Source: Salinigranum marinum
Lineage (GTDB): Archaea > Halobacteriota > Halobacteria > Halobacteriales > Haloferacaceae
Direction: 5' to 3'
Assembly: GCF_024228675.1 (NCBI RefSeq)
Contig: NZ_CP100461.1
Span: 2,973,398-3,037,397 of the forward strand
Length of the DNA: 64,000 nt
In this document: piece after piece, positions 3,603 to 29,071 of the stretch
How the letters are laid out: every line of letters begins with the position of its first letter
Numbering within the stretch: the stretch's first letter is position 1
Notes under the pieces: model-generated
What the model was told of the DNA's origin: nothing
Databases searched by the model: none
Seen by the model: only the letters and a program-made list of their open reading frames with translations
Made by a program: the position numbers and the translations under genes

Positions 3603-3675
3603 GGGCCCGTAGCTCAGTGGACAGAGTGCTTGGTTCCGGACCAAGATGTCGCGGGTTCAAATCCCGTCGGGTCCG
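3603..3675 (+). tRNA. tRNA-Arg (anticodon CCG)
   Basis: Cloverleaf read directly: acceptor GGGCCCG pairs with CGGGTCC, D arm GCTC/GAGT, anticodon stem CTTGG/CCAAG with loop TTCCGGA (anticodon CCG), T arm GCGGG/CCCGT with loop TTCAAAT, discriminator G. No CCA is encoded and no intron is seen. Bases 3662-3676, the 3' end, recur at 14763 and 26902, so this gene is the attachment site of the integrated elements and is kept intact by them. Confidence 0.95.
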
Positions 3676-3676
3676 T
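3662..3676 (+). repeat. att site 1 (attL): tRNA-Arg 3' end
   Basis: The 15-base core TCCCGTCGGGTCCGT is identical at 3662-3676, 14763-14777 and 26902-26916. To its right, about 70-85 bases are also recognisably related between copies (TCTAATCG, a GG(T/C)G(G/T)AAT block, TTTTA(A/G)TTCGG), ending in a TTCGTCAT/ATGACGAA dyad at 3727-3747. This is the left end of element 1 joined to the tRNA gene. Confidence 0.9.
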
Positions 3677-7128: not shown

Positions 7129-7205
7129 AATCGCGCAGTAGAGGTGGTACGTTAGTATAAGCCTGTTTATATTTACGGTATTCGTATGAATCAGCGTGTG
7201 GCAGA

Positions 7206-7317
7206 TTCGCGCCCTGTATTCAGCACGGCCACAGAGACCTCACCACTCTCTGTCAGAAGCAGCGTGCAACATACAGAGAGTGAGTTCAGCACTGAGCGCG
7301 CGTCAAATTCAGACCGA
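7206..7317. repeat. Direct repeat copy A upstream of a lipoprotein gene
   Basis: About 110 bases starting TTCGCGCCCTGTATTCAGCA recur nearly identically at 7872-7977. The copies differ at a handful of positions, and both end near ATTCAGACCG. Each lies 80-115 bases upstream of the start of a Tat lipoprotein gene on the minus strand. The minus strand is open in both copies and reads GEVSVAVLNTGRE, so the repeat may be a gene remnant rather than a promoter. Confidence 0.85.
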
Positions 7318-7758: not shown

Positions 7759-7871
7759 ATACGCGCATTGTGGATAGTTTGTAAGTAGCTTGTGTTCCAG
7801 CTGACTGTATCTTCCCTCCCCTGTGCCGAACGATGCGACCACCCCAATTGGAAGGGTGGTCCGATGCTACA

Positions 7872-7977
7872 TTCGCGCCCTGTATTCAGCACGGCCACAG
7901 AAACCTCACCACTCTCTATCAGAAGCAGCGTGCAACATACAGAGGGTGTATTCAGCACGCGCCCCGATTCAGACCGG
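7872..7977. repeat. Direct repeat copy B
   Basis: Second copy of the repeat at 7206-7317. It lies about 114 bases upstream of the GTG of the small lipoprotein gene. Substitutions relative to copy A include AGAGACC to AGAAACC and CTGTCAG to CTATCAG. A shorter related motif, CTGTATTCAGCAC, occurs again near 12640. Confidence 0.85.
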
Positions 7978-13642: not shown

Positions 13643-14656
13643 TTAAATCTGGTTGAGGTACTTCCGCTGCGGTTCCATCTTCTCACGCTCGGTCCGCCGG
13701 TCGTAGTGTTCGTCCAGAACCGCTGTCGGCACGTTCGCTCTTGCACTCACCACTGGCTCCGGGACATCCGAGTTCAACCACTGCGTGATTGCACCACGAC
13801 GAACAGCATGCGGTGACACTGATGACGGACAGGCGAACGACTGACTGCGGTCAATGGCTGTCTCACACTCAGAAAGGTCTCGTTTGTGTAGACACTCACC
13901 AGTGAACTCACAGGGCCGAGTCATCGAGTAGACGTAACTCTGAATCGTGGTGAGATGTGCCCTCCCTTGTGCAGTGGAAACGAGAGGGTTCCGACCGTAC
14001 TCGTCGATAGTGTCTGGCCGCCGGTCTGCAATCCACGCGTCCAGCACTGAACAAGTGCCTGCTGAGAGGGCAATGAATCGTTCGCCGTTGAATTTGTTCT
14101 TGATTAGCGTTTCTGTGTCGGGTCTATGCCGCACAGATAGCGACATCTCTTGTGCATCGTAATCGTCCACGTCCAGTGCGTGAATCGCGCCTCTTCGAAG
14201 CAGAGCGTGCCAAATGAGGAGAAAGGTGACATGGCGCTCTGAGGCGTACTCGTAGGTAGAGAGATACTCAACAATTCCGTCAGCGACTTTCGAGTCCAAC
14301 ATCACGTCCCGTGAATTCTCGCCGTCGGCAAGACTCGGAGAGACGACCTTGGACCACAAATCGGCAGGAACGGCATCGATAGTTCCGCACCAGCGAATGA
14401 ACACTCTGAGCGTGTCCATCTGTGATTTCTCACTCGGAGGCGCAAGGTCGCCGTCTGCCCGCCGCCACAATCGGTAGCGGTGTAGGGTCCGTCCGGTCAG
14501 CTCGTTCAGGTTGTCGATGTCCTGTTCAGCACACCATCGAATGAAATGGCCGAGTCGGGACGAGTGTGCGTACTGGGTCGCTTTCGCTAACTCGCTCTTG
14601 CGATCTTCGAGATACAATTCTACTGCTTCGTCGGGTCGGAGTGGTTCGAGTGCCAT
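13643..14656 (-). CDS. Tyrosine recombinase (integrase) of element 1
   Basis: A 337-residue site-specific recombinase, probably catalysing integration and excision at tRNA-Arg. An N-terminal SAM-like core-binding domain (MALEPLRPDEAVELYLEDRK) is followed by the catalytic domain: Arg in LLRRGAIHALDVDD, then HAVRR (His about 283, Arg about 286) and the nucleophile Tyr about 318 in [13 protein letters not shown]. The stop lies beside the IS5 copy and the start about 107 bases from att site 2. An alternative start adds six residues (14674). A decayed homologue sits at the same place in element 2. Confidence 0.92.
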   Translation of the reverse strand: MALEPLRPDEAVELYLEDRKSELAKATQYAHSSRLGHFIRWCAEQDIDNLNELTGRTLHRYRLWRRADGDLAPPSEKSQMDTLRVFIRWCGTIDAVPADLWSKVVSPSLADGENSRDVMLDSKVADGIVEYLSTYEYASERHVTFLLIWHALLRRGAIHALDVDDYDAQEMSLSVRHRPDTETLIKNKFNGERFIALSAGTCSVLDAWIADRRPDTIDEYGRNPLVSTAQGRAHLTTIQSYVYSMTRPCEFTGECLHKRDLSECETAIDRSQSFACPSSVSPHAVRRGAITQWLNSDVPEPVVSARANVPTAVLDEHYDRRTEREKMEPQRKYLNQI

Positions 14657-14741
14657 GGCTCTGTGTCGATGCAAATCGTGTGAACCAACGACCCGTCTCC
14701 GCGAATCCTAATCGCTGGACTGCGCGGCGATTAATTCAGGA

Positions 14742-14762: not shown

Positions 14763-14777
14763 TCCCGTCGGGTCCGT
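14763..14777 (+). repeat. att site 2 (junction of elements 1 and 2)
   Basis: Identical copy of the tRNA-Arg tail core TCCCGTCGGGTCCGT with no tRNA gene body upstream. The left flank carries an element right end (integrase side), and the right flank carries an element left end with a dyad TTCGTCATG/CATGACGAA at 14829-14849. It is therefore the shared boundary of tandem elements. Confidence 0.9.
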
Positions 14778-15061
14778 GGCATCTAATCGCAGGAGGGTGG
14801 TGGAATTGGCTCGAAGTTTTAGTTCGGTTTCGTCATGCTACATGACGAACTATCGTCCTGAAGATCAAAATGCGGCACTACCTGCCGTTTGTTCGGGGAC
14901 CATCCCTCCGCGAATGGCGAATTCGCGCGGGATTCGTTACGAGGGAGATAGAGTCAGTCTGATCAGACCAGAACTCACCGAACGAATCGCAGTCGTCGAA
15001 TGGTTTCCCAGCTGACCTGTGCATCGGTATCGTCGGGGCACCGTAATCGGATCGGGTCACA

Positions 15062-15355
15062 TCACCGTCGGAGGGAGACGTGGAGCACGAGCAATCCGAG
15101 TCCGACTGCCAGTGACTCGATGATGTGGACAGTGGTCAGATCGAGGGCGAAGAAATTGAACAGGACACCTTCGATGAACACACCGACCGTGATGACGGCG
15201 AACCCGAGCGTGGCATCCCGGAGGAACCGTTCTCCCGTTCGTCGATAGGCCTGATAACTCACCCACGAGACACCGGCACCCAGCAGGAACACGCCGACTC
15301 TGACGACAGAGAGCACGAGTGTCGGAAAGTCAGCCACCGTTCTCACCTCCAGCAT
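15062..15355 (-). CDS. DUF7521-like membrane protein A
   Basis: A 97-residue protein with three predicted membrane helices (LSVVRVGVFLLGAGVSWVSY; LGFAVITVGVFIEGVLF; ESLAVGLGLLVLHV). The pattern YQAYRRTGERFLRDATLGFA-ITVG-FIEGVLF matches its upstream neighbour, so the two are paralogues of a haloarchaeal three-helix family often encoded beside ArsR-type regulators. Its start overlaps the upstream gene by 26 bases, which indicates one transcript. Role unknown. Confidence 0.75.
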   Translation of the reverse strand: MLEVRTVADFPTLVLSVVRVGVFLLGAGVSWVSYQAYRRTGERFLRDATLGFAVITVGVFIEGVLFNFFALDLTTVHIIESLAVGLGLLVLHVSLRR

Positions 15356-15665
15356 CCCTCCTGTCACTCCGCCTGAGTTCGTCCGGCGAATAGCCGTTCG
15401 TCCGTCCGTACAACGAGTACAGGATGACCAACATCCCGACGGCGACGATACTCGTCTGCACGGTACCCGCCCAGAAGATGGAGAAGTGGAGCACGTCGAA
15501 GAGGATCCCTTCGATAACGGCGCCGAGACTGATAATCGCGAACCCGACCGCGAGATACAGCATCGCCTCGCTTCCCGAGCGTCGATAGCCACGGTAGGCA
15601 GTGCCTGCGATGAGCAGGCCGATGGCCATCGTGACGGCCTTCGCGATGACGAGTTCGATGTGCAT
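15330..15665 (-). CDS. DUF7521-like membrane protein B
   Basis: About 111 residues and three membrane helices, with AYRGYRRSGSEAMLYLAVGF and IISLGAVIEGILFDVLHF aligning with the paralogue downstream. The ATG overlaps the stop of the HTH gene (ATGATG), so translation is coupled. The C-terminal tail is charged (SPDELRRSDRRD). Two adjacent ATG codons make the exact start uncertain by one residue. Confidence 0.75.
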   Translation of the reverse strand: MHIELVIAKAVTMAIGLLIAGTAYRGYRRSGSEAMLYLAVGFAIISLGAVIEGILFDVLHFSIFWAGTVQTSIVAVGMLVILYSLYGRTNGYSPDELRRSDRRDAGGENGG

Positions 15666-16039
15666 CATCCACCTCGCATCTCGTTCCACATCCGGGTCAA
15701 CCGGTCCGCAGCGTCCTCACGGAGTCGAACCTGCACATCAAGATCACCATCGACCAGATCCACGTCGATGTGCTCGAGGTTCGCCTCGTAGACGCTGTGG
15801 TGGTGACCCCCGCTCGGGTCGATCTCCGTCCGTTCGACGAGGAAGTCGAACGCCTCGAGTCGTTCGACGCGCCGGTACACCGTTGGGAGCGACATCTCGT
15901 GTCGTTCGCTCAGGGTTTTCGCTGACATGGCTTCACGACTGGTTGCGACCAGGATGGTCCGAGCGTACTCGTCCGCCAGCAGGTCGAAGAGGACCACCTC
16001 GGCGTCTTCGTCCTCGTCTGCGGACGCAACCTCGGTCAC
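15665..16039 (-). CDS. ArsR-like winged-HTH regulator
   Basis: A 124-residue DNA-binding protein: FDLLADEYARTILVATSREA, MSAKTLSERHEMSLPTVYRR and VERLEAFDFLVERTEI form the winged helix, followed by a strand-rich HHHSVYEANLEHIDVDL part that could bind a ligand. The GTG at 16039 is chosen because a TATA box sits 26 bases upstream. It heads a three-gene unit with two DUF7521-like membrane proteins, a common haloarchaeal arrangement, and it probably controls that unit. Confidence 0.8.
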   Translation of the reverse strand: MTEVASADEDEDAEVVLFDLLADEYARTILVATSREAMSAKTLSERHEMSLPTVYRRVERLEAFDFLVERTEIDPSGGHHHSVYEANLEHIDVDLVDGDLDVQVRLREDAADRLTRMWNEMRGG

Positions 16040-16058
16040 ACATGAGGGTTCGAAACCA

Positions 16059-16068
16059 ACATATAAAT
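16059..16068 (-). promoter_or_regulatory. TATA box of the HTH-DUF7521 unit
   Basis: On the minus strand TTTATATG lies about 26 bases before the GTG at 16039. This fits a leaderless archaeal promoter and supports the chosen start. Confidence 0.6.
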
Positions 16069-16153
16069 GCTGTGGGTAGATATTCCGACCCGGAAAGTCT
16101 GCTCTTGGGGCTTTATCACTGTCCTCCGTACCGCCAACTGGAGGGTGAGCACG

Positions 16154-16912
16154 ATGTCCAAAGCAGATCTCGACCGTCGGACGTTCCTCGGAACCGCCGG
16201 AACGACGGCTGTCACGATACTCGCGGGATGTACAGGTGCGGCACCGAACAACCAGGCCGCAGACGGGACGGCGACGGCGGCTTCGGAGGCGGAACACACA
16301 GAGAGTGGACACGGTCACGAAGAGGACAGCCACCACGAGACCGAAGGACACGGCGAAGCGGAGGCTCACCACGAGGACGAAGAACATCACGACGAGGAGA
16401 CCGCAACGGACCATCACGAGGAGGCCGAGCACCACGAAGGCGAAGAAACTCACACCGAAGGCGGTCACAGCGGAGGCGGTCCATTCGAGCACGCCACGGT
16501 GAACATGCAGACGACATCGAGTGGTCAGCACTTCCACCCGCACGTCGCGTGGGTCGAACCCGGTGGGACCGTCACCTTCGTCAACGAGAGTGGGACCCAC
16601 ACCGCGACGGCGTACCACCCGGACAACGACAAGCCCCAGCGGGTTCCCGACGGTGCCGAGCCGTTCGACAGCGGCCTCCTGACAGAGGAGGGGGCGACGT
16701 GGGAACACACCTTCGAGACCGAAGGCGTGTACGACGTCTACTGTGAACCCCACGAACAGCTGGGGATGATCGGCACCGTCGTCGTCGGTAAACCCGACCC
16801 CCACGACCAGCCCGGCCTGGCCGACCCCCAGAGTGAAATGTCTGGAGAGGTCGCCTCGAAGGTCCAGCGTCTGAACGAGCAGGTCAACACCATGCTCGGT
16901 CACGAGCACTGA
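16154..16912 (+). CDS. His-rich halocyanin-type cupredoxin, Tat lipoprotein
   Basis: A 252-residue surface copper protein. The Tat signal DRRTFLGTAGTTAVTILAGC ends in a lipobox. Residues about 38-110 are extremely His/Glu-rich (repeats such as HHEDEEHHDEE), a probable metal-buffering spacer. The cupredoxin fold follows, with ligands in GTHTATAYHP (His) and YCEPHEQLGM (Cys, His, Met). Plain halocyanins lack such a long His/Glu spacer, so binding of extra copper or zinc is likely. It lies divergent from the HTH unit on the metal island. Confidence 0.9.
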   Translation: MSKADLDRRTFLGTAGTTAVTILAGCTGAAPNNQAADGTATAASEAEHTESGHGHEEDSHHETEGHGEAEAHHEDEEHHDEETATDHHEEAEHHEGEETHTEGGHSGGGPFEHATVNMQTTSSGQHFHPHVAWVEPGGTVTFVNESGTHTATAYHPDNDKPQRVPDGAEPFDSGLLTEEGATWEHTFETEGVYDVYCEPHEQLGMIGTVVVGKPDPHDQPGLADPQSEMSGEVASKVQRLNEQVNTMLGHEH

Positions 16913-17114
16913 GAACCGGATCACGTTCCCGACGCGTGTCAGCTGCACGTTCGACCGGATGCAGTATTCTCCTTCACGTCGTCCACGCAATCGCTGCAAA
17001 CGAGACGGAAGACCGGTTTGGGAGATTTCGAAGCCCACTGTGGTTCCTGCCGTAACTCAAACTGGTGCTGTAGTCACCTGAAATGGTAAGCACCTCTCGT
17101 GAACACACACATCC

Positions 17115-17645
17115 ATGCACTCCAGACGGCGTCTCCTCATTGCCTTGGCTGCCCCCGCTGGGACGACCCTCGTGGGGTGTCTCTCGGGAGCAACCGACAG
17201 CACCGGTACAGGTGACAGCGACACCGCGACTCCCGATTGTACGGCCACGCCGCCACCGAAACCAACCGACGCGGCGACGTCCGCCCGGGCGTATCCCGAC
17301 CGTCCAACGGAACTCACCAGCGAGTCGATCGAGGGGTTCCTGAGCGCATACGAAAGAGCCTACCAGTACAACGATGCGCTCGCTGCCAGTCCCAACAAGA
17401 TCGGACGCACCAACGAGTTCACCGTCTTCGTCCAGTCGGTCTCCGTGGACGCCGAAAACGAGGGGTTCACGGCGACCGTATCGGGCCAGTACGAGTCCGA
17501 CTTCCTCGATACGTCGGCGTCAACCGTGACTCCGGAGACGGCGACAGAGACTCCTCTCCCAGCAGGACGCGGGCCCTTCGAGGCCTCGTACGTGATAACG
17601 GATCGCCTGCTCCGGCGCGAGGGCGTCGTCCACGAGTGCTGGTGA
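17115..17645 (+). CDS. Tat lipoprotein, unknown function
   Basis: A 176-residue exported protein: twin arginines in SRRRLLIALAAPAGTTLVGC, a lipobox, a Thr/Asp-rich spacer, then a compact domain with TSESIEGFLSAYERAYQYND and FTVFVQSVSVDAENEGF. Similar short lipoproteins are frequent in haloarchaea and have no assigned role. The final residues VVHECW include a lone cysteine. It is followed directly by a truncated ATPase remnant on the other strand. Confidence 0.75.
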   Translation: MHSRRRLLIALAAPAGTTLVGCLSGATDSTGTGDSDTATPDCTATPPPKPTDAATSARAYPDRPTELTSESIEGFLSAYERAYQYNDALAASPNKIGRTNEFTVFVQSVSVDAENEGFTATVSGQYESDFLDTSASTVTPETATETPLPAGRGPFEASYVITDRLLRREGVVHECW

Positions 17646-17648
17646 TCG

Positions 17649-17810
17649 CTATCCCGACGAGACGGACAGGTCGACACCGCGGAGTCGCCGGGCGTTGATC
17701 GCGACGATCACCGTTCTCAGCGACATGAAGACCGCTCCGATTGCCGGGGAGAGGGGGATACCGACAGGTGCGAGGACCCCTGCCGCGAGCGGGAGCGCGA
17801 ACACGTCCCA
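17649..17810 (-). pseudogene. C-terminal remnant of a heavy-metal P-type ATPase
   Basis: The minus frame reads [20 protein letters not shown] followed by [20 protein letters not shown] and ends [10 protein letters not shown]. This is the conserved last two membrane helices of P1B ATPases (CopA/CopB/ZntA type). Upstream the frame loses all similarity, so about 50 codons are all that remains. It marks a deleted metal exporter on this island. Confidence 0.8.
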
Positions 17811-18203
17811 GAAGCGCCTCGGATCACGTTCAACAAACAGACCCGTCGAGTTCGAGCGAACCAACGGACGACCGTCGTCGTTCCGCGTGCCGATCTCCCG
17901 GCGGGAGGGTACGTGGTCATCCATCATGGGCGGCACGAAGGCAACGCGAACAGTGGAAACAGCCACACGCACGGTGGAGGTGACCACCATATCATCGGCC
18001 ATTCCGAGTACCTCGAACCGGGCCACTACGGTGGTCTCAAGATACCAGTTTCCCCGCCTGGAACTGGTGAGAAAACGTTGACCGCAATGCTTCACGAGGA
18101 CAACGGTGACCGAGTATTCGAACACCCCGGCGGAGACCTCCACTACACGTCGCCGGACGGGTCCGGTCCAGTCCGAGACGTCGCTGAAGTGACGTTCAGG
18201 TGA
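17811..18203 (+). pseudogene. DUF7282-domain fragment, 5' truncated
   Basis: The plus frame contains [26 protein letters not shown], then [16 protein letters not shown] and [12 protein letters not shown] with a final VRDVAEVTF. This is the order of motifs in the haloarchaeal DUF7282 beta domain of exported proteins. No start codon or signal peptide precedes it, and its first codons meet the ATPase remnant. The inserted stretch [14 protein letters not shown] is His-rich. It is probably a deletion relic. Confidence 0.65.
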
Positions 18204-18326
18204 GCGGCCCCCGACTGACCTTCCGAATTCGTCGACCCGATACCGAGAGGCGTGCTCACAGCTGGTTGACCATCCGTACCGATCATCACCGACGTTCGAG
18301 TCGTGATATCGATCCGCTGATGATGC

Positions 18327-18842
18327 TTACGACATCGGGGGGGATTCTTCGGACTCTACCCGTTCTTTGAAGAAGACGAGCTCCTTGTTAGTGTGTTCGT
18401 AGAGCTCGGTTTCCCCGTCGAGTACGGTCGTGAACAGCCATCTCAACGTGTGTCCCCAACGGTTATTCGGAAAGTCCATCCAGACGGCATGAGACATCCG
18501 AGTTCCGGCCTCAGTCTCCTCCAGTCGGATGGTGCCACCCTCAGGGATTCGAACGGTGACGAGCCCGCGCAGGAACGGGTAGTAGGCCGTCCCGGTCCAT
18601 ACTGCCACGTTCGGATAGTCGATGTAGGGGAACCGACCGTGCAGGTTGGCGTACATCCCGGCGACCTCTTCGCGCTGATGGAACGTTGCGCCTTCACGCG
18701 GGCGGTTATCAGAGGTGTCGTATTCGAGCCCGTAGTGTTCCTCGGGATTCGATGCTGTCCAGTGGACGGGGTCGGTCACGTATTCCCAGACGTTCTCGGG
18801 AGAAGCATCGATGACAATCTCGGCTTCGTCGGTGAGATACAT
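18327..18842 (-). CDS. SRPBCC (START/polyketide-cyclase fold) protein
   Basis: A 171-residue soluble protein with the SRPBCC opening EIVIDASPENVWEYVTDPVH and strands such as VAVWTGTAYYPFLRG and GTIRLEETEAGTRMSHAVWM before a long C-terminal helix. Such proteins bind hydrophobic ligands in a deep pocket. The ATG at 18842 is preceded by GGAG at a suitable distance; a GTG at 18857 is the alternative. It follows the small membrane gene by some 20 bases and is probably co-transcribed with it. Confidence 0.75.
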   Translation of the reverse strand: MYLTDEAEIVIDASPENVWEYVTDPVHWTASNPEEHYGLEYDTSDNRPREGATFHQREEVAGMYANLHGRFPYIDYPNVAVWTGTAYYPFLRGLVTVRIPEGGTIRLEETEAGTRMSHAVWMDFPNNRWGHTLRWLFTTVLDGETELYEHTNKELVFFKERVESEESPPMS

Positions 18843-18863
18843 TGATTCTCCGTTCACCTGCTG

Positions 18864-19163
18864 TTACCGAGCGAAGACGTTGTACAGTCGTGCGAAGGCG
18901 TACACGAGGACGAAGCTGACAACGGCCGCTTCGGCCATTCCCGCAGCGGTTCCGACGACGGTCGGTTCGAAGAACAGATGCCACTGTTGCATCGCCACCA
19001 CCGCACTCCCGTAGACACCGATCGCTCCGAACACGCCGAGCAGGAGCATCACCACGGCGGAGACGACTGCTGCAGCGCCCGCGAACGCCAGTGCGTCGAG
19101 GTGCATCACACCGGCGGTTGGTCCCATCTCGTACGTGTCCTGGTTTTCGGTCGCCGTGCTCAT
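18864..19163 (-). CDS. DUF5676/holin-like small membrane protein
   Basis: A 99-residue protein with two to three membrane helices: GVMHLDALAFAGAAAVVSAV, VMLLLGVFGAIGVYG and AEAAVVSFVLVYAFARLYNV. The order 'HLD...A...G...LLLG...Y' then a C-terminal 'FARLYN' resembles the DUF5676 membrane family seen near metal-resistance genes. The open frame extends far upstream, but the Met of MSTATENQ at 19163 is the sensible start. First gene of a two-gene unit. Confidence 0.65.
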   Translation of the reverse strand: MSTATENQDTYEMGPTAGVMHLDALAFAGAAAVVSAVVMLLLGVFGAIGVYGSAVVAMQQWHLFFEPTVVGTAAGMAEAAVVSFVLVYAFARLYNVFAR

Positions 19164-19484
19164 GGCTGAAGATACGCTCGACTGGTTCAATCGACTTTCT
19201 CTTACTATTCGAAAGCGGGATCTCCTCGTCAACACGTTTCGGATGAGATGCGAGTCGAAATTGCGACACTGCACTCCGCTCTGCACGGTTGAGCTGTATG
19301 AATCACCAGTAGCGACTGCCAGCTGGGGCCAGTGAGCTTCGGTAATCAATAACAAGGGTCGTGATTTGAGGACCGAAGACCAAGATCGTGTCCGGAGTAA
19401 ACCTTCGAATGAGTGATTCGGAGGATACGTCGCCTCATTTAATGAAGAACAACTGACAAAGCTGATGGCCGTGATGATGTAGAT
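19164..19484. other. Divergent intergenic region
   Basis: 321 bases between the small membrane gene (minus) and the YHS permease (plus). No credible gene was seen. It must hold both promoters; a weak A/T-rich stretch lies at about 19436-19450. Confidence 0.4.
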
Positions 19485-20888
19485 ATGCAAGCCGCCCTCC
19501 TCGACGGGATTCTCGAATCCCTGCGGATCGGTTTCGGGTTCCTCTGGACGGCAGCCTGGGCGATCATCATGGGGCTGGTGATCACGAGCCTCGTCCAAGT
19601 CTACGTCTCGAAAGACCGGATGGCCCAACTCCTCGGGGAGGAGAACCCTAGTGGACTCGTGAAGGCGACGGCGTTCGGTGCCGCGAGTAGCGGCTGTAGC
19701 TTCGGCGCCGTCGCGATCGGGAAAGGACTGTTCAAGAAAGGCGCACACGCGGTGAACGTCCTCGCGTTCATGTTCGCCTCGACGAACCTCATCGTCGAAC
19801 TCGGACTGATGATCTTCATCCTCCTCGGCTGGGAGTTTCTGGTTGCCGAACTCCTCGGCGGCGTCATCCTCATCGCCGTGATGGCTCTCTTGGTGCATCT
19901 GACCCTCCCCGAGAACCTCTTCGATCAGGTACGGCAGGAACTGAACGAACGCGACCACGACCGGGGAATCACCGAGGACCCGACCTGCGGGATGGAAGGC
20001 AAAGACGAGTATTCACTCACGACTGACGGGGGTGAGACACTGAAGTTCTGCTCGCAGGGCTGTATGGAAACCTATCAGCAAGAAATCGCCAGTAGTGGTG
20101 GGTGGCGTGACGAACTCCTCTCGTGGGGTGGCTGGTACAAGCTCGGCAACCAGTACCGGAAGGAATGGTCGATGATCTGGAAGGACGTCGTCGCGGGCTT
20201 TCTCGTCTCGGGATTCGTCATCGTGTTCGTCCCCCAGTGGATGTGGAACGCGCTGTTCCTCCAGGGGGATGGAGTGCTCGTGAGTGCCGAGAACGCCGTG
20301 GTAGGTGTGTCGATTGCGGTCATCAGCTTCGTCGGAAGTATGGGCAACGTTCCCTTCGCTGTCGCGCTCTGGGGAGGCGGTATCAGCTTCGCGGGCGTCA
20401 TCGCGTTCGTCTACGCCGACCTCATCACCATCCCCGTTCTCAACGTCTACCGGAAGTACTACGGCTGGGAGGTGATGCTGTACATCCTCGGTATCTTTTT
20501 TGTGACGATGGCGTTCACCGGCTTCCTCATGGAGGAACTGTTCACCATCCTCGGAATCGTTCCGGACCTCGCTGGTGGACAGACTGCGCGTGAACAGACG
20601 TACTTCGAACTCAACTACACGTTCTACCTCAACCTCGTCGCGTTCGTACTCTCCGGATTCCTCCTCTACGTCTACCGTCGTGGGCTCGGGGCGCCTGGAC
20701 AGTACCGCGACCCGGTCTGCGGGATGCGGACCGACGACAGCGGTCCGAGCATCACTCACGACGGCGAGACGTACTACTTCTGTTCGAACCAGTGCAAGCG
20801 GTCGTTCGAGGAACATCCGACCGAGTTTGCAGGGAGTCAGGAACAGACATCTGACGTGCGGTCGTCACAGGGTCATGAGCATCACTGA
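19485..20888 (+). CDS. DUF318-type permease with two YHS/TRASH metal domains
   Basis: A 467-residue membrane protein related to the YraQ/ArsP-like permeases (two halves of about four helices, with TAFGAASSGCSFGAVAIGKG and AVISFVGSMGNVPFAVALWG as paired signature loops). Two YHS-type metal-binding domains are built in: DPTCGMEGKDEYS...FCSQGCMETY between the halves and DPVCGMRTDDSG...YFCSNQCKRSFEEH at the C-terminus. The tail ends in HEHH. The combination points to transport of a soft metal or metalloid ion such as copper or an arsenical; the direction is not evident. Confidence 0.85.
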   Translation: MQAALLDGILESLRIGFGFLWTAAWAIIMGLVITSLVQVYVSKDRMAQLLGEENPSGLVKATAFGAASSGCSFGAVAIGKGLFKKGAHAVNVLAFMFASTNLIVELGLMIFILLGWEFLVAELLGGVILIAVMALLVHLTLPENLFDQVRQELNERDHDRGITEDPTCGMEGKDEYSLTTDGGETLKFCSQGCMETYQQEIASSGGWRDELLSWGGWYKLGNQYRKEWSMIWKDVVAGFLVSGFVIVFVPQWMWNALFLQGDGVLVSAENAVVGVSIAVISFVGSMGNVPFAVALWGGGISFAGVIAFVYADLITIPVLNVYRKYYGWEVMLYILGIFFVTMAFTGFLMEELFTILGIVPDLAGGQTAREQTYFELNYTFYLNLVAFVLSGFLLYVYRRGLGAPGQYRDPVCGMRTDDSGPSITHDGETYYFCSNQCKRSFEEHPTEFAGSQEQTSDVRSSQGHEHH

Positions 20889-21017
20889 ACAGGTCACATA
20901 GAACTTCTCCACACAACCTCCACCAGCACTCTTGCTCCATACAATCAAAACTGGTAGGAGGGTGACGGGATAACGACAGAGCATGAACCAGACACACGTC
21001 GGAGCGAGGGGTGGGCG

Positions 21018-21602
21018 ATGAACCGGCGTCGGGCCGATCTGATCGTGGGCCTTCTCGTCGTTGTAGTCCTCGTCGTCGGTGGCGCACTCACGGTGCAAGC
21101 CTACCAACAGCAGCGTGTCCTGGGCGGTATGGGGACGATGATGGGAGGCTCGATGGCGACCGTCCACGGAACCAATCCACTCTGGTACGCCCTTGGAACC
21201 CTGCTCGTCGCCGCTATCGTCGGCGTCCTGTACCTTACCGTCCGTGACAGCCTCGGCGTCTCGGGTGGGAGTGACCAGTTCCCGAGGGAGCCGATCGGTT
21301 CTGACGGACGAACACTCGACAGTCAGGCCGCAGACGAGTCGTCGAAGCGGACACAGAACCCGGAGGAGCAGCCTCGCGAACGCGTCCTCGATCTCCTGCC
21401 GGAAGACGAACGACGAATCCTCGAGCCGGTTCTCACCTCCCCCGGAATCACGCAGATCGAACTACGGGACCGCTCGGACTTCTCGAAGAGCAAGGTGAGC
21501 CAGACTGTGAGTGAACTCGAAAAACGCGGGCTCCTGTACCGAGAACAACAGGGACGAACATATCGGATCTACCCGAGCGAGAGCCTGTCACAAGACGAGT
21601 GA
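21018..21602 (+). CDS. Membrane-anchored winged-HTH protein with Met-rich loop
   Basis: A 194-residue protein with two membrane helices: LIVGLLVVVVLVVGGALTVQ and NPLWYALGTLLVAAIVGVLY. The extracellular loop between them has GGMGTMMGGSMATVHG, a Met/His-rich cluster that could bind copper. The cytoplasmic C-terminus is a winged helix (LTSPGITQIELRDRSDFSKS, KVSQTVSELEKRGLL, YREQQGRTYRIYP). It therefore looks like a one-component membrane sensor. It lies 130 bases after the YHS permease on the same strand, which it may control. Confidence 0.8.
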   Translation: MNRRRADLIVGLLVVVVLVVGGALTVQAYQQQRVLGGMGTMMGGSMATVHGTNPLWYALGTLLVAAIVGVLYLTVRDSLGVSGGSDQFPREPIGSDGRTLDSQAADESSKRTQNPEEQPRERVLDLLPEDERRILEPVLTSPGITQIELRDRSDFSKSKVSQTVSELEKRGLLYREQQGRTYRIYPSESLSQDE

Positions 21603-21657
21603 GCCATCTGCTAACGATTGTCAAACAATTAAGCTGGTAGAGATCGTACGGAAAGAC

Positions 21658-21825
21658 ATGTGCAGCCGCCACGCCGCACATCTCATCGCGGAGTACGAGG
21701 CGACGCGGCTTGCCCGCGAAGAGAACGAGGAAACGAGCGACACTCCGAGCACGACGGAGTCGGAGCAACAGTCGAGTGAACGGACCGGCGCGATAGCGGC
21801 TGTAGTCGCTTGGATTTCTCGGTGA
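21658..21825 (+). CDS. Small hypothetical protein, 55 residues
   Basis: Starts MCSRHAAHLIAEYEATRLAR, with a CxxH near the N-terminus, a Ser/Thr/Glu-rich middle and a short hydrophobic C-terminus. The composition fits a haloarchaeal gene. A dyad ATTGT-CAA-ACAAT lies about 30 bases upstream. No family is recognised and the gene may be spurious. Confidence 0.4.
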   Translation: MCSRHAAHLIAEYEATRLAREENEETSDTPSTTESEQQSSERTGAIAAVVAWISR

Positions 21826-21871
21826 CTACCGAATCGTCAGGGGCGATTCTCTCCCGGAGCCGACAGCATGC

Positions 21872-22615
21872 TTAGTCGGCGGCCCGTGCCTGTCCACTGC
21901 GCTGGGTTTGACCCATCTCGGCGGGATTCTTCATGCCCTCCTTGACGCCGAAGTGGACCAGCGTGGCGTTGACGGGGAACGCGAAGACGAAACCGACCGA
22001 TAGTGAGAACACGAGTGCGCCCCAGAACAGCAGGTCACCGATATGGGCTTGACTGGCGATCAGCAGGTCCGTCCCGATGGCGGCGATCTCCATGACAGTG
22101 ATGCTCGGCGTCTCGCTGTAGAGGGCGTCGAGCATCGCCTCGCCGAATCCGACGCCCTCCTGCATGAGGGGGCCGACGGTGAGCGCGTAGCCGAACGTGT
22201 ATGCGAGCGCGAACGTCCCCGCCGTGACGAGGAGCGTACTCTGCAAGGCGAGCAGCCCGGCGAGGAGTACGAATCCGAGGACTTCACCGGCTCCACAGCC
22301 GGAGTAGCAGTGGGCGGTCGAGCGGAAGCCCCGCCGCCACAGCGAGTCGTTGCTGATCTGGGTGCGTCCGGAGTACCAGTAGACGGCGAGTCCGAACGGC
22401 CCGGAGTAGAGGACGACCAGTGTCCAGACCGCTTTCATCAGCGACGGCAACGCCTGGTTTCGCTCGCGGAGATCCCACCAGAGGGTGCCGACGGACGCGA
22501 CGACTAGCAGCGCCCAGACGCCCATCACGAAGGGATCCGACAGAATCGGCTTCATCACGTGGCGAACCGGTGCGAGTGTGTGTTCGATCTGTGTGAGCAG
22601 GTTCTGGAGTGGCAT
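21872..22615 (-). CDS. DUF4396-like membrane protein
   Basis: A 247-residue protein with about six membrane helices. The signature HCYSGCGAGEVLGFVLLAGL identifies the DUF4396 family, whose members commonly lie beside heavy-metal genes. Other features are LVVLYSGPFGLAVYWYSGR near the N-terminus and a C-terminal FPVNATLVHFGVKEGMKNPA. The paired Cys and His in the signature could coordinate metal. ATG 22615 was chosen; upstream extension of the frame is not protein-like. Confidence 0.8.
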   Translation of the reverse strand: MPLQNLLTQIEHTLAPVRHVMKPILSDPFVMGVWALLVVASVGTLWWDLRERNQALPSLMKAVWTLVVLYSGPFGLAVYWYSGRTQISNDSLWRRGFRSTAHCYSGCGAGEVLGFVLLAGLLALQSTLLVTAGTFALAYTFGYALTVGPLMQEGVGFGEAMLDALYSETPSITVMEIAAIGTDLLIASQAHIGDLLFWGALVFSLSVGFVFAFPVNATLVHFGVKEGMKNPAEMGQTQRSGQARAAD

Positions 22616-22917
22616 GGTCGCGTTGACGAGAGCGACGTCTCTCTCGTTACTGCTTGCAGTCGCGGGGCGTATGCTCCTGCAAGACATGAGTGAGGTTGGC
22701 CATTTTACTCGATTGTGGTTAACAATCCAAACCGCGAGCGCCCCCCGGGAGTAGAGGTGCCGAACTCGGAGCCCATCGAATTCGCCGGCGATGAACGATC
22801 TCTCTCGAGAAAAACGATTAGATCGCGTTATACACGTTCTCGAACGGTCTCCTGTGCAGGTTCGCGCCCACGCCGATAACTCCTGAGGGGTCCTATGGGT
22901 AATCGAGGAGAAAGCCA
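22616..22917. promoter_or_regulatory. Divergent intergenic region with dyad
   Basis: 302 bases between the DUF4396-like gene and the secreted protein gene. GATTGT and ACAATC form a dyad with a 5-base spacer at 22711-22727. A similar GATTGT-CAA-ACAAT occurs at 21616-21629. It could be the operator of a local regulator; the evidence is thin. Confidence 0.35.
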
Positions 22918-23220
22918 ATGACCAACATCAGAATCGGACGCTGGCTGCTGGTGGTGCTCGCAATCGTCGGACTCGCGCTCACCGCGAGCGTGGTCAGCGC
23001 ACACGGTGACGACCCGACCGGTGAGGACGCTCCCCCCTACGACGGGACCGCCGCAGAGTGGGCGGCCTGGATGGAGACGCATATGACCGACCACATGGGA
23101 CCGGGTAGCGTTGAGTGGATGGAATCGCACATGGGCGTGACTATCGACGAGATGGCCCATGTCATGGCTGACAGCGACTACGACGACCACAGGAGGTACG
23201 GGCAGGGACGGGGGTGCTGA
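22918..23220 (+). CDS. Secreted Met/His-rich small protein
   Basis: A 100-residue protein with a Sec-type signal (RIGRWLLVVLAIVGLALTAS, cleavage near VVSA-HG). The mature part is rich in Met and His: AAWMETHMTDHMGPGSVEWM followed by ESHMGVTIDEMAHVMAD. This spacing of HM pairs is typical of periplasm-type copper-binding proteins. The mature chain even begins with His, a candidate copper ligand. It lies in the metal block upstream of two SHOCT genes. Confidence 0.75.
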   Translation: MTNIRIGRWLLVVLAIVGLALTASVVSAHGDDPTGEDAPPYDGTAAEWAAWMETHMTDHMGPGSVEWMESHMGVTIDEMAHVMADSDYDDHRRYGQGRGC

Positions 23221-23286
23221 ACCCGGTTCGCTGGCTACCCCTGAGCGGATGACTGAACGTCACACGACTACACAAACACACCAATC

Positions 23287-23640
23287 ATGAACCAGATCAC
23301 CGATGCTGTCGGACGGATCGTGCGTCGAATGACGATACTCGCCATCCCCCTGCTCGCGGGCGCGAGCGGTACCGCTGCTGCTCACAGTGGAGGGAGCTAC
23401 GGTGGCGGGATGATGGGTGGCGGCTGGGGGCTCTTCGGTGGGACGATGGGCCTCTGGGGCCTCCTCTGGATGGGCCTCCTGATCGCCATCCCCGTCTACC
23501 TCGCCTACGCGCTCCTCACGCGCAACTCGGACAGCCGAGAGGGTCGGCCACTGTCGGTCCTTCGTGAGCGCTACGCTCGTGGAGAACTCTCCGAAGAGGA
23601 GTTCGAGCAGCGACGAACCAAGCTCGAACAAACAGGATGA
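23287..23640 (+). CDS. SHOCT-domain membrane protein A
   Basis: A 117-residue protein with an N-terminal signal-like helix, a Gly/Met-rich SYGGGMMGGGWGLFGGTMG segment, one strong membrane helix (WGLLWMGLLIAIPVYLAYAL) and a C-terminal SHOCT motif, LRERYARGELSEEEFEQRRT. SHOCT motifs are short oligomerisation modules. The Gly-Met-rich stretch echoes the neighbouring genes and could bind copper. A paralogue lies at 24164. Confidence 0.8.
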   Translation: MNQITDAVGRIVRRMTILAIPLLAGASGTAAAHSGGSYGGGMMGGGWGLFGGTMGLWGLLWMGLLIAIPVYLAYALLTRNSDSREGRPLSVLRERYARGELSEEEFEQRRTKLEQTG

Positions 23641-23731
23641 GACAGACGGTCAAAGGCCAAGAATATCTATTTTGGAGGATCGACCCTCAACTGCATGAAG
23701 AACCCGCAAAATTAAACCCTCAGATACAGTA

Positions 23732-24157
23732 GTGTTTAGTATAGGACATATAATACAAACTACTGTGAATGGAGCGTTCGGCGAAACCGTCGAGGCTGCG
23801 GTCGCCGCACTCGAAGACGAGGGTTTCGGAGTCCTCTGCGACATCGATGTGCAGGCGACGCTCAAGGAGAAGCTCGGCAAGGAGTGCCGGCAGTACCGAA
23901 TCCTCGGTGCATGCAATCCGGCACTGGCACACGAGGGGCTGGCCGAGGAGATCGAACTCGGGGCGCTCCTCCCGTGTAACGTCATCGTTTACGAGACCGA
24001 CGACGGCGGCGTCGTCGTGAGTGCGGTCGACCCGCAGCAGTTGGTCGGGATTGCCGAGAACGCTGTTCTCGACTCGATCGCGACCGAGGTTCACGAGCGG
24101 TACGAGCGCGTCTTGTCGACCATCACCGACGAACTCGGAGCCAGGTCGGAGGTCTGA
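23732..24157 (+). CDS. DUF302-domain protein
   Basis: A 141-residue soluble protein. The DUF302 core is visible as ETVEAAVAALEDEGFGVLCD, I-D-V-Q-A-T-L-K-E-K-L and YRILGACNPALAHEGLAEEI with LLPCNVIVYE. DUF302 proteins are frequent beside heavy-metal and sulfur genes; the ACNP and LPCN cysteines may bind a ligand. It is followed seven bases later by the second SHOCT gene. The initiation codon is GTG at 23732. Confidence 0.85.
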   Translation: MFSIGHIIQTTVNGAFGETVEAAVAALEDEGFGVLCDIDVQATLKEKLGKECRQYRILGACNPALAHEGLAEEIELGALLPCNVIVYETDDGGVVVSAVDPQQLVGIAENAVLDSIATEVHERYERVLSTITDELGARSEV

Positions 24158-24163
24158 TTCCAG

Positions 24164-24517
24164 ATGTCTTCGTCGAACCAATTCGACACCACAATTATCA
24201 TTCTCCTGATCCTCGGGGCGATCATCATCTTCCCGTTGCTCACGATGGGGATGGGATTCGGCGGAATGATGGGATACGGCGGCATGATGGACGGGTACGA
24301 GAGTGTCGGTGGTTGGTGGCCACTCGTCGGAATGGTCATGCAGCTCGTCTTCCTTCTCGTCCTCCTTGGTGGGGGAGATCTCGTCTATCGGCGCGTGACC
24401 GGCGCTCAAGACGCTCGAAACCCGGCGATGGAGGAATTGCGCATGGCGTACGCTCGTGGCAACCTCACCGATGAAGAGTTCGAGAGACGTCAAGAGAAGC
24501 TGGAACGATCGAAATGA
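24164..24517 (+). CDS. SHOCT-domain membrane protein B
   Basis: A 117-residue paralogue of the protein at 23287. A first membrane helix (IIILLILGAIIIFPLLTM) is followed by a Gly/Met-rich stretch GMGFGGMMGYGGMMDGY, a second helix (LVGMVMQLVFLLVLLGGG) and the SHOCT motif LRMAYARGNLTDEEFERRQE. It is co-transcribed with the DUF302 gene. The Met-rich segment again suggests interaction with copper at the membrane. Confidence 0.8.
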   Translation: MSSSNQFDTTIIILLILGAIIIFPLLTMGMGFGGMMGYGGMMDGYESVGGWWPLVGMVMQLVFLLVLLGGGDLVYRRVTGAQDARNPAMEELRMAYARGNLTDEEFERRQEKLERSK

Positions 24518-24849
24518 CGACCGAAGATGGTCTTGAGTTTTAATCAGTAACAAAATCCGACAACAATCCTCACCAGGGTGTCTTATAACTCGCACTTCCG
24601 AGATACTGCTCGAATTTACAGGCCGTTGAATAAAGTCATTATCTGTGGTTATCCCCGACGATGAAGACGTGGTCTGCGCGTTATTTGGAATAAATCACGG
24701 TACTCGCATTACACCTGTGCCAGGTATCGTCTCCGCTGTTCCATCTTTTCTCGTTCCGTCCGCCGGTCGTAGTGTTCGTCCAGAACCGCCGTGGAGACGT
24801 TCGCTCGTGCGCTCACCACTGGCTCGGGCACGTCCGAGTTCAACCAGTG

Positions 24850-25917
24850 GAGGGTGTCATAGAAGAGTTCTCACACCGTGATCACGGTACTTCCCGGATT
24901 GTCTCCACGTTCGTAGTTGGTGATTGCGACGACGAGGCGAAGGCACAGGGCGAGAAATACCTGCGCCCGTGCGTGGACGCGGCCTCGGGCGTGCGTTCGC
25001 CCGAGGCCGCAGTCCTTCACTGATTCGTTGGTTCGTTCGACTCCACTACGGCGGTTGTACGTCTCATCCAACGTGGACTGCTTCAACTGAACGTCCTCGC
25101 CGTGTTCGGTGATGCGGTCTTCGACCCTGTACTCAATGTCTTTCGGGTCATCAGCGTTCCGGGCGTTGTATGGAGCGACTGGCACGACCCCTGCGGTCAG
25201 CAGGTGGTCGTGCCAGTCGAGCGTGTCGTAGGCGCTGTCACCGACCATCCAGATCGGTGTGGCGACGGCGAGCGCGTCACGCGTGACGCGCATCGCCGTC
25301 TCTTCTGGCGCTTGCTTACTCTCGGTGAACTCCGCTCCGATCGGGATCTTTTGCCCGGTCGAGACGATCGTACAGCCGTAGCCGTAGTAGTACTCGTCGT
25401 CGGTTGGATCGTAGCACTTTGAGGCGTCTGGATCGGCGGGCATCGCCCTCACGTCTGTTGAATCGATACAGTAGGTCAAGTCGAGCAGGCCGCGCCGGGC
25501 GGCCTGCTCGACGAGGTGGTCGAACACCTTGTCAACGACGTGTTCAAGATCGGTGAGAAAGCGATCGACCGCGTCTCTCGACGGCGGTCGATCGAATCCA
25601 CAGCTCAGCCAGACGACCGTGTTCCGAAGCTCTCGTTCAACGGGACGAATGCCGTAGATGTCCTTGTAGTAGCAGTGGAGAAAGCCACGCATCAGTTCTG
25701 GTGGTTCGTGGTCTCGTGTTCGCCCCGTCTTCGCCGGGGCGAACACGTCGAACTCTTCGAGAAACTCGAAAGAGAGGTGCTCGAACAGCGCTAGCGTCTC
25801 TGTCTCCACGGCATTGAAGAACGAGTCTACCGAAGGATCATCTTGCAGGGTCGCTGAACTCATCCACCTCAGCGTTCACCCTGCTCTTTGGTGTGCTAAT
25901 CGTTCTATGACACCCTC
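24850..25917 (-). mobile_element. Insertion sequence, copy 2 (intact transposase)
   Basis: Same element as at 8839-9905 with ends GAGGGTGTCAT...ATGACACCCTC. CCAGTG is present on both sides (24844-24849 and 25918-25923), giving a 6-base apparent target duplication against nine bases at copy 1. It lies inside the integrase gene of element 2; the element-1 gene shows the uninterrupted sequence (GTTCAACCA followed by GTGATTGCACCA-like sequence). Confidence 0.9.
24871..25863 (-). CDS. DDE transposase, intact, 330 residues
   Basis: Full-length transposase of the IS. The N-terminal helical region starts MSSATLQDDPSVDSF, and the catalytic core has LTYCIDSTDVRAMP (first Asp), IWMVGDSAYDTLDWH (second Asp) and NRRSGVERTNESVKD (Glu). 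It ends in a short basic and hydrophobic tail. The frame is uninterrupted because the G run near 25735 has four G, unlike copy 1, so this copy may be active and could mobilise both. Confidence 0.9.
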   Translation of the reverse strand: MSSATLQDDPSVDSFFNAVETETLALFEHLSFEFLEEFDVFAPAKTGRTRDHEPPELMRGFLHCYYKDIYGIRPVERELRNTVVWLSCGFDRPPSRDAVDRFLTDLEHVVDKVFDHLVEQAARRGLLDLTYCIDSTDVRAMPADPDASKCYDPTDDEYYYGYGCTIVSTGQKIPIGAEFTESKQAPEETAMRVTRDALAVATPIWMVGDSAYDTLDWHDHLLTAGVVPVAPYNARNADDPKDIEYRVEDRITEHGEDVQLKQSTLDETYNRRSGVERTNESVKDCGLGRTHARGRVHARAQVFLALCLRLVVAITNYERGDNPGSTVITV

Positions 25918-26879
25918 CCAGTGGGTAATGGCACCACAACGAACGGCGTGGGGGGACACCGATGACGGACAGGCGAACGACTGACTACGATCAATTGCTG
26001 CTTTGCACTCCGAAATATCTCGGTCATGTGGACATTCGCCTGTAAACGCACAGGGTCGAGTCATCGAGTAAACGTAGCTCTGAATCGTGGTGAGATGCGC
26101 CCGACCCTTGGCAGTAGACACGAGTGGGGTCCGACCGTACTCGTCAACCGGATCTGGTCGACGGTCTGCAATCCACGCGTCCAGCACAGAACACGTCTCC
26201 GCCGAGAGCGCGATGAACCGTTCGCCGTTGAATTTGTTCTTGATTGGTGTTCCTGTTTCGGGACGGTGCCGCACATCTAGCGACATCTCCTGTGGGTCGT
26301 AGTCGTCCACGTCCAGCGCGTGAATCGCACCTCTCCTGAGCAAAGCATGTCAAATCAGGAGAAAAGTCGCGTGCCGCTCAGAAGCATACTCGTAGGTAGA
26401 GAGGTAGTCGAGAATCCCATCTGCGACCTCGGAGTCAAGCATCACGTCACGAGAGTTCTCCCCGTCAGCCAAACTTGGAGAGACGACTTTGGATCATAGG
26501 TCGGTCGGAACCGCGTCAATCGTTCCACACCAACGGATGAATACGCGGAGTGTATCCATCTGTGACTTCTCAGTCGGTGGTGCGAGGTCGCCATCTACAC
26601 GCCGCCACAGTCGGTAGCGGTGCAGCGTCCGTCCGGTGAGTTCGTTCAGCTTAGCGATATCCTGTTCGTCACACCATCGAATGAAGTGGCCCAGTCTAGA
26701 TGAGTGTGCGTACTGGGTCGCTTTTGCTAGTTCGCTCTTGCGGTCTTCGAGGTACAGTTCGACGGCTGTTTCTGGGTCGAGTGGTTCGAGTGCCATGGCT
26801 CTGTGTCGATGCAAACCGGAGTCAACAACGACTCGAACCTGAAACCGTAATCGCCAGACAGCGCGGCGATTAATTCAGC

Positions 26880-26900
26880 TTCGTCAGACACTATGACGAA
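26880..26900. promoter_or_regulatory. Dyad beside att site 3 (left arm)
   Basis: TTCGTCA and TGACGAA arms, with a 7-base spacer, end one base before the core at 26902. It corresponds to the palindrome at 14742-14760 but is less perfect. Confidence 0.5.
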
Positions 26901-26901
26901 T

Positions 26902-26916
26902 TCCCGTCGGGTCCGT
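26902..26916 (+). repeat. att site 3 (right boundary of element 2)
   Basis: Third identical copy of TCCCGTCGGGTCCGT. The left flank is the element right end (integrase start, then GCGCGGCGATTAATTCAG). The right flank GGCATCTAATCG...ATTTTAATTCGGATTCATCATG resembles the element left ends after copies 1 and 2, with a degenerate dyad at 26968-26988. Confidence 0.9.
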
Positions 26917-27798: not shown

Positions 27799-28608
27799 TC
27801 AGGTCGGCTTGACGGCTTCGATGGTCGCTGAGACCACGTATTCACTCACGTCTCGTTCCGCGTCCCACTCGCGGATGAACTCCTCACTCCCCTCGTCCGA
27901 TTCGATTCGAATCGCTTCGAACCCGGCGTTCGAGAGCATTCGTTTCACGTCCGGTATCGGTGACGCACCCGCAATACAGGAGGCAACCGATTCGGGGTCA
28001 GCGTGGACATCGTCCGGCAACTCGGCGGTCAGGACAACGTCCGAGATGGCGAGTCGCCCACCAGCACGAAGCGCGCGATAGCCCTCGTGGAACACCTGCT
28101 GTTTGTCCGGGGAGAGGTTGACCACGCAGTTCGAGATGATGACGTCGACCGTCCCGTCAGCAACTGGAAGGTGTTCAATCTCGCCGAGTCGGAACTCCAC
28201 GTTGTTCGCATCGTTCTTCGTGACGTTGTCGCGGGCTTTCTCGACCATCTCCGGCGTCATATCGACGCCGATGACGTGTCCGGTCTCTTCGACTTCGTGA
28301 GCAGCGAGAAAACAGTCGAAGCCCGCGCCGGAGCCGAGGTCGAGGACGGTCTCGCCGGGTTGCAGGGAGGCGATCCCGTTCGGATTTCCACAACCGAGGC
28401 CCAAGTTCGCGCCGTCGGCAACGGCGGCTTCCTCGTCTTCGGAGTACCCGAGTTGCTGCGTCAGGTCCTCCTCTGCAGTGGTATCTGATCCGCTACAGCA
28501 ACTCGACGATTCGCTCGCAATCCGCGCGTATCGTTGTCGGACTGCTCGCCGCTGTTCGTCAGGAGCTAGCCTCTCAGTCACCGAGTCCGATGGAGACGGT
28601 TCACGCAT
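27799..28608 (-). CDS. arsM: Arsenite S-adenosylmethionine methyltransferase (ArsM)
   Basis: A 269-residue class I methyltransferase that methylates As(III). SAM site VLDLGSGAGFDCFLAAHEV, then VIGVDMTPEMVEKARDN. Family cysteines are present: SSSCC near the N-terminus, SNCVVNLSPDK and VASCIAGASP. The N-terminal QQLGYSEDEEAAVADGANLG and LGCGNP block is also diagnostic. The gene overlaps arsR by eight bases with an ATG inside the arsR stop region, so they form one unit. A longer start at 28629 is possible. Confidence 0.93.
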   Translation of the reverse strand: MREPSPSDSVTERLAPDEQRRAVRQRYARIASESSSCCSGSDTTAEEDLTQQLGYSEDEEAAVADGANLGLGCGNPNGIASLQPGETVLDLGSGAGFDCFLAAHEVEETGHVIGVDMTPEMVEKARDNVTKNDANNVEFRLGEIEHLPVADGTVDVIISNCVVNLSPDKQQVFHEGYRALRAGGRLAISDVVLTAELPDDVHADPESVASCIAGASPIPDVKRMLSNAGFEAIRIESDEGSEEFIREWDAERDVSEYVVSATIEAVKPT

Positions 28609-28975
28609 CCGGCTCACCTCGTGTCTCATCGAGCGTGTTCAGGAGGGTCGTCGCTCGCGGAGTCGCAGCGTAGTATCGCCACCGTCCGTCTTTGCGTCGA
28701 GACACGAGGCCGGCGGTGTAGAGCCGTGAGAGCGCCTGACTGATGGCGCTCTGACTGACGCCGAGTGCAGGTTCGAGTTCACAGACGCAGACGCCACCGT
28801 CCGCGTCGGCGATGAGTCTGAGTGCCTCGTAGCGCGTGTCGTTTCCGAGGGCCGCGAGAACCTGTACGTCCGAGGCGAGTTCCGACTCCGTCAGTGAGTG
28901 GTGTGTAGTAGTACAACACTCTCTGTCGGACTGAACGTTCTCGTTCTGGGTCGATGGGGACGATTGCTGACTCAT
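28601..28975 (-). CDS. arsR: ArsR-family metalloregulator
   Basis: A 124-residue repressor with a winged helix: ASDVQVLAALGNDTRYEALR, GGVCVCELEPALGVSQSAIS and QALSRLYTAGLVSRRKDGRW. The CVCEL pair at the start of the recognition region is the classic As(III)/Sb(III)-sensing site. A further Cys pair (RECCTTTHH) lies at the N-terminus. It probably represses itself and arsM. The start MSQQSS (28975) is chosen over an upstream Met at 28999. Confidence 0.92.
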   Translation of the reverse strand: MSQQSSPSTQNENVQSDRECCTTTHHSLTESELASDVQVLAALGNDTRYEALRLIADADGGVCVCELEPALGVSQSAISQALSRLYTAGLVSRRKDGRWRYYAATPRATTLLNTLDETRGEPDA

Positions 28976-29071
28976 CTTAGTAGATTCTAATATTAGCAAG
29001 TGCTAATGTAAGCGTTTCGCAGGAGGGTGATATACACCGGAGAGATCTAGCGTGAAAGTTCTGTACGTGGA

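Follow-up and report, generated by a model that had tools for sequence, protein, structure and literature searches.

Gene block and integrative element

The window, meaning the whole stretch of 64,000 nucleotides that was analysed, originates from Salinigranum marinum (contig NZ_CP100461.1, positions 2,973,398 to 3,037,397). Its positions 19485–24517 hold a block of seven genes that an earlier note on the same DNA had regarded as a possible copper or soft-metal resistance system. Family assignments were based on profile searches of the window proteins with Pfam and NCBIfam. The block begins with an ArsP_1-type permease (19485–20888, plus strand; PF03773), which carries two YHS domains (PF04945), one central and one C-terminal. 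It is followed by a membrane-anchored MarR-like regulator (21018–21602, plus strand), matched by MarR_2 and DUF7343 at residues 129–184. A DUF4396 membrane protein with an HCxxGC motif was located on the minus strand (21872–22615; PF14342, E 3.8e-29); its likely start at 22615 was set by the 89% identical protein of haloarchaeal locus L083. The remaining genes are on the plus strand. They encode a small Met/His-rich secreted protein (22918–23220) with invariant residues and a predicted cleavage site, SHOCT protein 1 (23287–23640; PF09851, E 1.5e-10), a DUF302 protein (23732–24157; PF03625, E 2.2e-26) and SHOCT-like protein 2 (24164–24517; PF09851, E 4.9e-5, slightly below the Pfam cut-off). 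The DUF302 protein matched the solved structures 1j3m and 1q9u, both of unknown function. All seven reading frames are full length and intact and have kept the invariant ligand residues. The gene list of the earlier note, comprising the YHS permease and the DUF4396, DUF302, SHOCT and secreted proteins, was correct.

The block lies in a region of integrated elements. A tRNA-Arg (CCG) gene is located at 3603–3675 on the plus strand. Its 3' end, TCCCGTCGGGTCCG, together with the next base T forms an attachment (att) core that was found as an exact 15-mer at 3662, 14763 and 26902. At 3662–3676, 14 of the 15 bases fall within the tRNA end. The other two copies (14763–14777 and 26902–26916, both plus strand) are embedded in a longer conserved att region, and each stands directly before the start of one of two related integrase genes. 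The first of these is at 13643–14674. The second (24709–26814, minus strand) matches it at 81–87% and is split by an insertion sequence (IS) at 24850–25917. Two tandem elements, each with its own integrase, are thus present at the tRNA-Arg. The tRNA-end repeats beside the integrase genes identify the block as cargo of element 2 (14763–26902), which the earlier note had overlooked. In three genomes of the same genus, the tRNA precedes an integrase or an integrase remnant, and the copper block is absent there.

Conservation of the neighbourhood in haloarchaea

Searching one genome per species, 80 haloarchaeal permease loci were kept, with permeases 79–88% identical. Up to 10 kb on each side of the permease was compared, some loci being shorter. 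A Cu-ATPase was found at 50 of the loci, a MarR-like regulator at 42, an HMA protein and the secreted protein at 40 each and a cupredoxin at 34. Where the regulator occurred, it was accompanied by the secreted protein (39 of 42), SHOCT protein 1 (36), DUF302 (32) and SHOCT-like protein 2 (30). Collapsing near-identical loci left 58, of which 30 had a Cu-type ATPase, 21 an HMA protein and 20 a cupredoxin; at least one of these was present at 40. Across 60 family genomes, the close type of DUF302 was situated within 10 kb of the permease in 11 of 37 cases, compared with 0 of 55 for the other class (Fisher p 1.6e-5). The gene grouping is conserved well beyond chance. A neighbourhood without conservation had been named in the earlier note as an argument against its reading; gene order proved to be conserved across haloarchaea. 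DUF4396, which had been counted as a core part, was present at only 3 of the 80 loci and is mostly located elsewhere, making it a passenger, or optional member, of the block.

The core order of permease, MarR-like regulator, secreted protein, SHOCT, DUF302 and SHOCT is present in the window copy. The same order was found on pNG600 of Haloarcula marismortui and on plasmid unnamed2 of Haloarcula litorea, with permeases 85–89% identical. Among the fuller relatives in which DUF4396 occupies the same place, the H. litorea plasmid is the nearest. These two islands have P-type ATPases, an HMA chaperone, thioredoxin and plastocyanin, whereas the window copy, located on the chromosome, no longer has several of them. 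Fuller plasmid versions add CopA, the HMA chaperone, an AsnC regulator, thioredoxin, plastocyanin, DoxX and a universal stress protein, and annotated plasmid regions also name a multicopper oxidase or a four-helix-bundle copper-binding protein. A version of about 18 kb was 98–99% identical in Haloarcula, Halorhabdus, Halorussus, Halosegnis and Halohasta (11 kb in the latter) and 96% identical in Halorientalis. The 98–99% identity between genera indicates recent cross-genus spread. This island (loci L018–L025, L032 and L084) was found on plasmids and contigs.

Traces of the fuller version were detected upstream of the permease. The C-terminal approximately 50 residues of a CopA-type Cu-ATPase remain at 17661–17810 (minus strand; 74% identity; TIGR01511 positions 499–542). 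The remnant reported in the earlier note is therefore real, but it lies outside the range given for the block, and an intact Cu-ATPase is encoded 15 kb downstream. A search of the window for thioredoxin (E 1e-3) gave no match. The block is not followed by a second plastocyanin; SHOCT-like protein 2 gives way to the integrase end and the IS. As judged from these comparisons, the window copy is a trimmed one that has lost CopA (50 residues left), thioredoxin and one plastocyanin. A His-rich blue-copper protein of the plastocyanin/azurin type was retained at 16154–16912 (plus strand; PF00127, E 4.5e-11). Next to it, at 15062–16009 on the minus strand, are a winged-helix gene and two DUF7521 membrane-protein genes, which adjoin plastocyanin in plasmid loci too. 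Two recurring neighbours precede the permease on the minus strand: an SRPBCC-family protein (18327–18857; 80% to locus L083) and, divergent from the permease, a small membrane protein with a QWHLFFEPT motif (18864–19190; 84% to locus L083), which recurs at 16 loci. A fragment of a DUF7282 protein with a His-rich start (17913–18203) is probably the remnant of another cargo gene.

Apart from the remnant, no Cu-ATPase was found within the island of the window copy. The intact CopA (39813–42425, minus strand; TIGR01525 625 bits and TIGR01511 534 bits, both above the cut-offs; 74% to the plasmid CopA) sits outside the element. It is paired with an Lrp/AsnC-type regulator (42525–43118, minus strand) that matches the regulator of the plasmid copper islands at 67%. 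In the same-genus genomes G048 and G027 the AsnC gene occupies the corresponding position, but the 20–40 kb read there contained no match to CopA. Two further heavy-metal ATPases above the family cut-off are encoded elsewhere in the genome.

Further features of the integration region were noted. Near-identical IS copies of about 1.07 kb are located at 8839–9905 and 24850–25917, in the same orientation and 16 kb apart. A composite transposon formed by the two was rejected because a repeat of its own flanks each copy (TATCCACAC; CCAGTG), suggesting that they inserted independently. Element 1 contains an 88-base direct repeat (7205–7292 and 7871–7958, 94% identical). Beyond element 2, an ArsM-like methyltransferase and an ArsR-like regulator (27799–28999) adjoin the copper element and possibly form a separate arsenic set. 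Because low G+C reaches about 30 kb, beyond 26902, and because the core at 26902 is followed by the sequence of an element end, these two genes may belong to a third, partial element.

Permease, regulator and exported proteins

The permease (467 aa) scored 193.8 bits on PF03773 (E 4.8e-57), against a gathering cut-off of 32.3. The YHS score of 55.3 bits was distributed over two stretches, the middle loop and the C-terminus. Both copies hold a metal site of one aspartate and three cysteines (D165/C168/C189/C193 and D409/C412/C433/C437) that is invariant in haloarchaea; in YHS domains these residues are thought to bind copper (PMC4626032). The membrane residue Cys71 (SSxCS motif) is invariant in bacterial as well as haloarchaeal homologues. 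The best NCBIfam match was NF033936, the SO_0444 Cu/Zn efflux transporter family (75.1 bits, E 5.3e-21), which is also the best match of most bacterial homologues. The likeness lies in an ArsP_1-type permease tied to copper stress, the difference in the two added YHS domains of the haloarchaeal protein. SO_0444 itself is required for growth of Shewanella oneidensis under zinc or copper stress (PMC3219624), and a family member is induced by copper and cadmium in Nitratiruptor (PMC10092412). Sequence comparison with solved structures gave no match. The permease is probably a Cu(I)/soft-metal efflux protein. The earlier statement that no complete known efflux pump was present was not supported in view of this probable function and of the intact CopA 15 kb away.

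Bacterial homologues of the permease, 37–40% identical, are located in classical copper islands. On pDSM14862_f of Sulfitobacter indolifex the permease gene is near CopA, CueR, multicopper oxidase, SCO and DUF411, on a plasmid of Indioceanicola profundi near a heavy-metal ATPase, PCu(A)C and multicopper oxidase, and on pKD01 of Alteromonas macleodii near a CusCBA (CusA-type) pump and DUF411. In contrast to the haloarchaeal loci, the bacterial islands have no YHS domains and no SHOCT/DUF302/MarR set. The copper response of Halobacterium, with the CopA protein yvgX, HMA chaperones and the Lrp/TRASH regulator VNG1179C (PMC3551603), has parts resembling the CopA and AsnC pair at 39813–43118. The block differs from it by its own membrane-anchored MarR-like regulator and by a permease instead of an ATPase. 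A heavy-metal cluster flanked by DUF302 and DUF4396 proteins was reported for Acidihalobacter (PMC7760498). No paper describing the present module as a unit was found in a literature search mostly without subscription journals.

Topologies and sites of signal cleavage were deduced from the sequence without a dedicated program. The regulator has a predicted transmembrane segment (TM), a Met-rich outside loop, a second TM and a cytoplasmic MarR-type winged helix. Within the loop, M38, M41, M42, M46 and H50 were invariant in all 25 distinct sequences and the neighbouring residues were variable. Matches of the regulator in PADLOC were weak winged-helix similarities. In most loci of the MarR type a near-palindromic ACTTTSGAATG-like element precedes the permease by about 85 bases; it also occurs in the divergent promoter and is a possible operator or core promoter. 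Sites were located at 19217 (minus) and 19400 (plus) in the window and at 10733 (minus), 10916 (plus) and 15064 (minus) in locus L083. At two mismatches the motif was no more frequent in the window than by chance and is therefore only noted.

The secreted protein (100 aa), earlier called His-rich, is equally Met-rich, with 6.1% His and 7.1% Met. Its residues H29, M52, M56, M60, M68, M79, M83 and the C-terminal C100 were invariant in 21 sequences, and H29 directly follows the predicted cleavage between VSA and HG. SHOCT protein 1 has a signal-like N-terminus (predicted cleavage between AAA and H), a GGGMMGGG segment, a TM and a cytoplasmic SHOCT domain. SHOCT-like protein 2, with 8.6% Met, is predicted to consist of a TM, a Met-rich outside loop, a second TM and a cytoplasmic SHOCT domain; M28, M30, M35, M36, M41 and M57 are invariant. 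A conserved His follows the predicted signal cleavage in both exported proteins (22918–23220 and 23287–23640). Some copper proteins use an N-terminal His as ligand.

Candidate function and alternatives

Since related gene sets adjoin copper pumps in many relatives, resistance to copper (or silver) is the most likely role of the block. With a probability of roughly 0.7, the block represents the trimmed form of a mobile resistance module of haloarchaea for Cu(I), possibly Ag(I), carried as cargo of an integrative element at tRNA-Arg. Copper is the likely metal on the basis of the haloarchaeal neighbours, the bacterial copper islands, SO_0444 as the nearest curated family and the conserved ligands. 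In the outside segments of four proteins, taken together, Met/His columns were more often invariant (21 of 28) than columns of other residues (43 of 125; p 1e-4). The recurring haloarchaeal neighbours are copper genes, namely Cu-ATPase, HMA chaperone, plastocyanin and multicopper oxidase. Together with the islands of the bacterial homologues, they support the copper or soft-metal resistance proposed in the earlier note. Its suggestion of a type without an assigned pathway was too strong, because elsewhere the same genes stand beside CopA, a CopZ-like protein, plastocyanin and multicopper oxidase.

Several observations weigh against a copper module. No copper marker was found at 18 of the 58 dereplicated loci in the compared DNA, which was short at some loci. 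One distant haloarchaeal homologue of the permease and a homologue in Streptomyces had no copper genes beside them. The permease score of 75.1 bits is well under the NF033936 cut-off of 300 bits, and likeness to the SO_0444 family is therefore claimed and not membership. The test of Met/His invariance treats alignment columns as independent and gave no significance when confined to the two SHOCT proteins. The AlphaFold2 models were too poor for examining a copper path, with a pLDDT of 43 for the permease (37 haloarchaeal homologues, 80–88% identical) and of 60 for the secreted protein, which was modelled as helical.

Export of another soft metal (Zn, Cd or Hg) by the permease, within a broad metal-resistance set in which the copper genes merely travel along, is an unlikely alternative. 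It would agree with the requirement for SO_0444 under zinc as well as copper (PMC3219624) and with the cadmium induction of a relative (PMC10092412). The islands also include a transporter of the ZIP type and an ATPase named as cation-translocating but not as Cu-specific. The recurring neighbours, however, are cupredoxins and multicopper oxidases, and the outside ligands are Met and His with almost no Cys. Such ligands suit Cu(I) or Ag(I) rather than Zn or Cd. Removal of methylarsenite, produced by the nearby ArsM-like methyltransferase (27799–28629), by an ArsP-type organoarsenical exporter is the least probable of the explanations considered. ArsP shares PF03773 with the permease, and the ArsM-like and ArsR-like genes are only 3–4 kb from the block; yet they lie outside element 2, past the att core at 26902, and are not conserved near the permease, with a weak match each at just 1 of the 80 loci. 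An organoarsenical exporter would also leave the YHS domains and the copper neighbours unexplained.

The trimming itself raises the question of decay. A non-functional leftover, whose resistance disappeared with the loss of CopA, thioredoxin and one plastocyanin, would fit the CopA remnant, the integrase interrupted by the IS and the missing thioredoxin match. It is very unlikely, as seven full-length frames retain their invariant ligand residues, other loci also miss some of the partners, and plastocyanin (16154–16912) and CopA (39813–42425) persist in the same genome.

For the copper module, a chain of outside sensing, YHS-capture efflux and Met-rich buffering may be proposed from anatomy and conservation. 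Excess outside Cu(I) would be bound by the invariant Met and His residues of the regulator's outside loop. The bound MarR-like protein would then change its cytoplasmic winged helix and switch on the block. Cytoplasmic copper would be captured by the permease at the aspartate and three-cysteine sites of its two YHS domains and would leave, without ATP, through a path containing the invariant Cys71. Outside, the metal would be held by the secreted protein, rich in Met and His, and by the two SHOCT membrane proteins through their Met-rich faces, and would be handed to plastocyanin where present. DUF302 and, elsewhere, thioredoxin might handle thiols or copper inside, which is the weakest step. 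The more specific proposal is tentative: copper would be exported independently of ATP by a permease gated by two cytoplasmic YHS domains that sense copper, under the control of a membrane-embedded one-component regulator and with a Met-rich outside buffer carrying an N-terminal His, the ATPase then being optional. The sensing mechanism in particular, with outside Cu(I)/Ag(I) read directly via M38, M41, M42, M46 and H50, is likewise tentative.

As a system, the block is not of a new kind. Plasmid-borne haloarchaeal CopA was already known, with homologues on pNG600 noted earlier (PMC4187130); new here is a mobile set for copper resistance whose regulator and exporter have an unusual architecture. 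If the reading is true, DUF302, the SHOCT membrane proteins and the membrane-bound MarR-like regulator would acquire a testable function, and haloarchaea of different genera would share one copper-resistance island almost unchanged. Archaea would then also have a direct sensor of outside copper in a single polypeptide.

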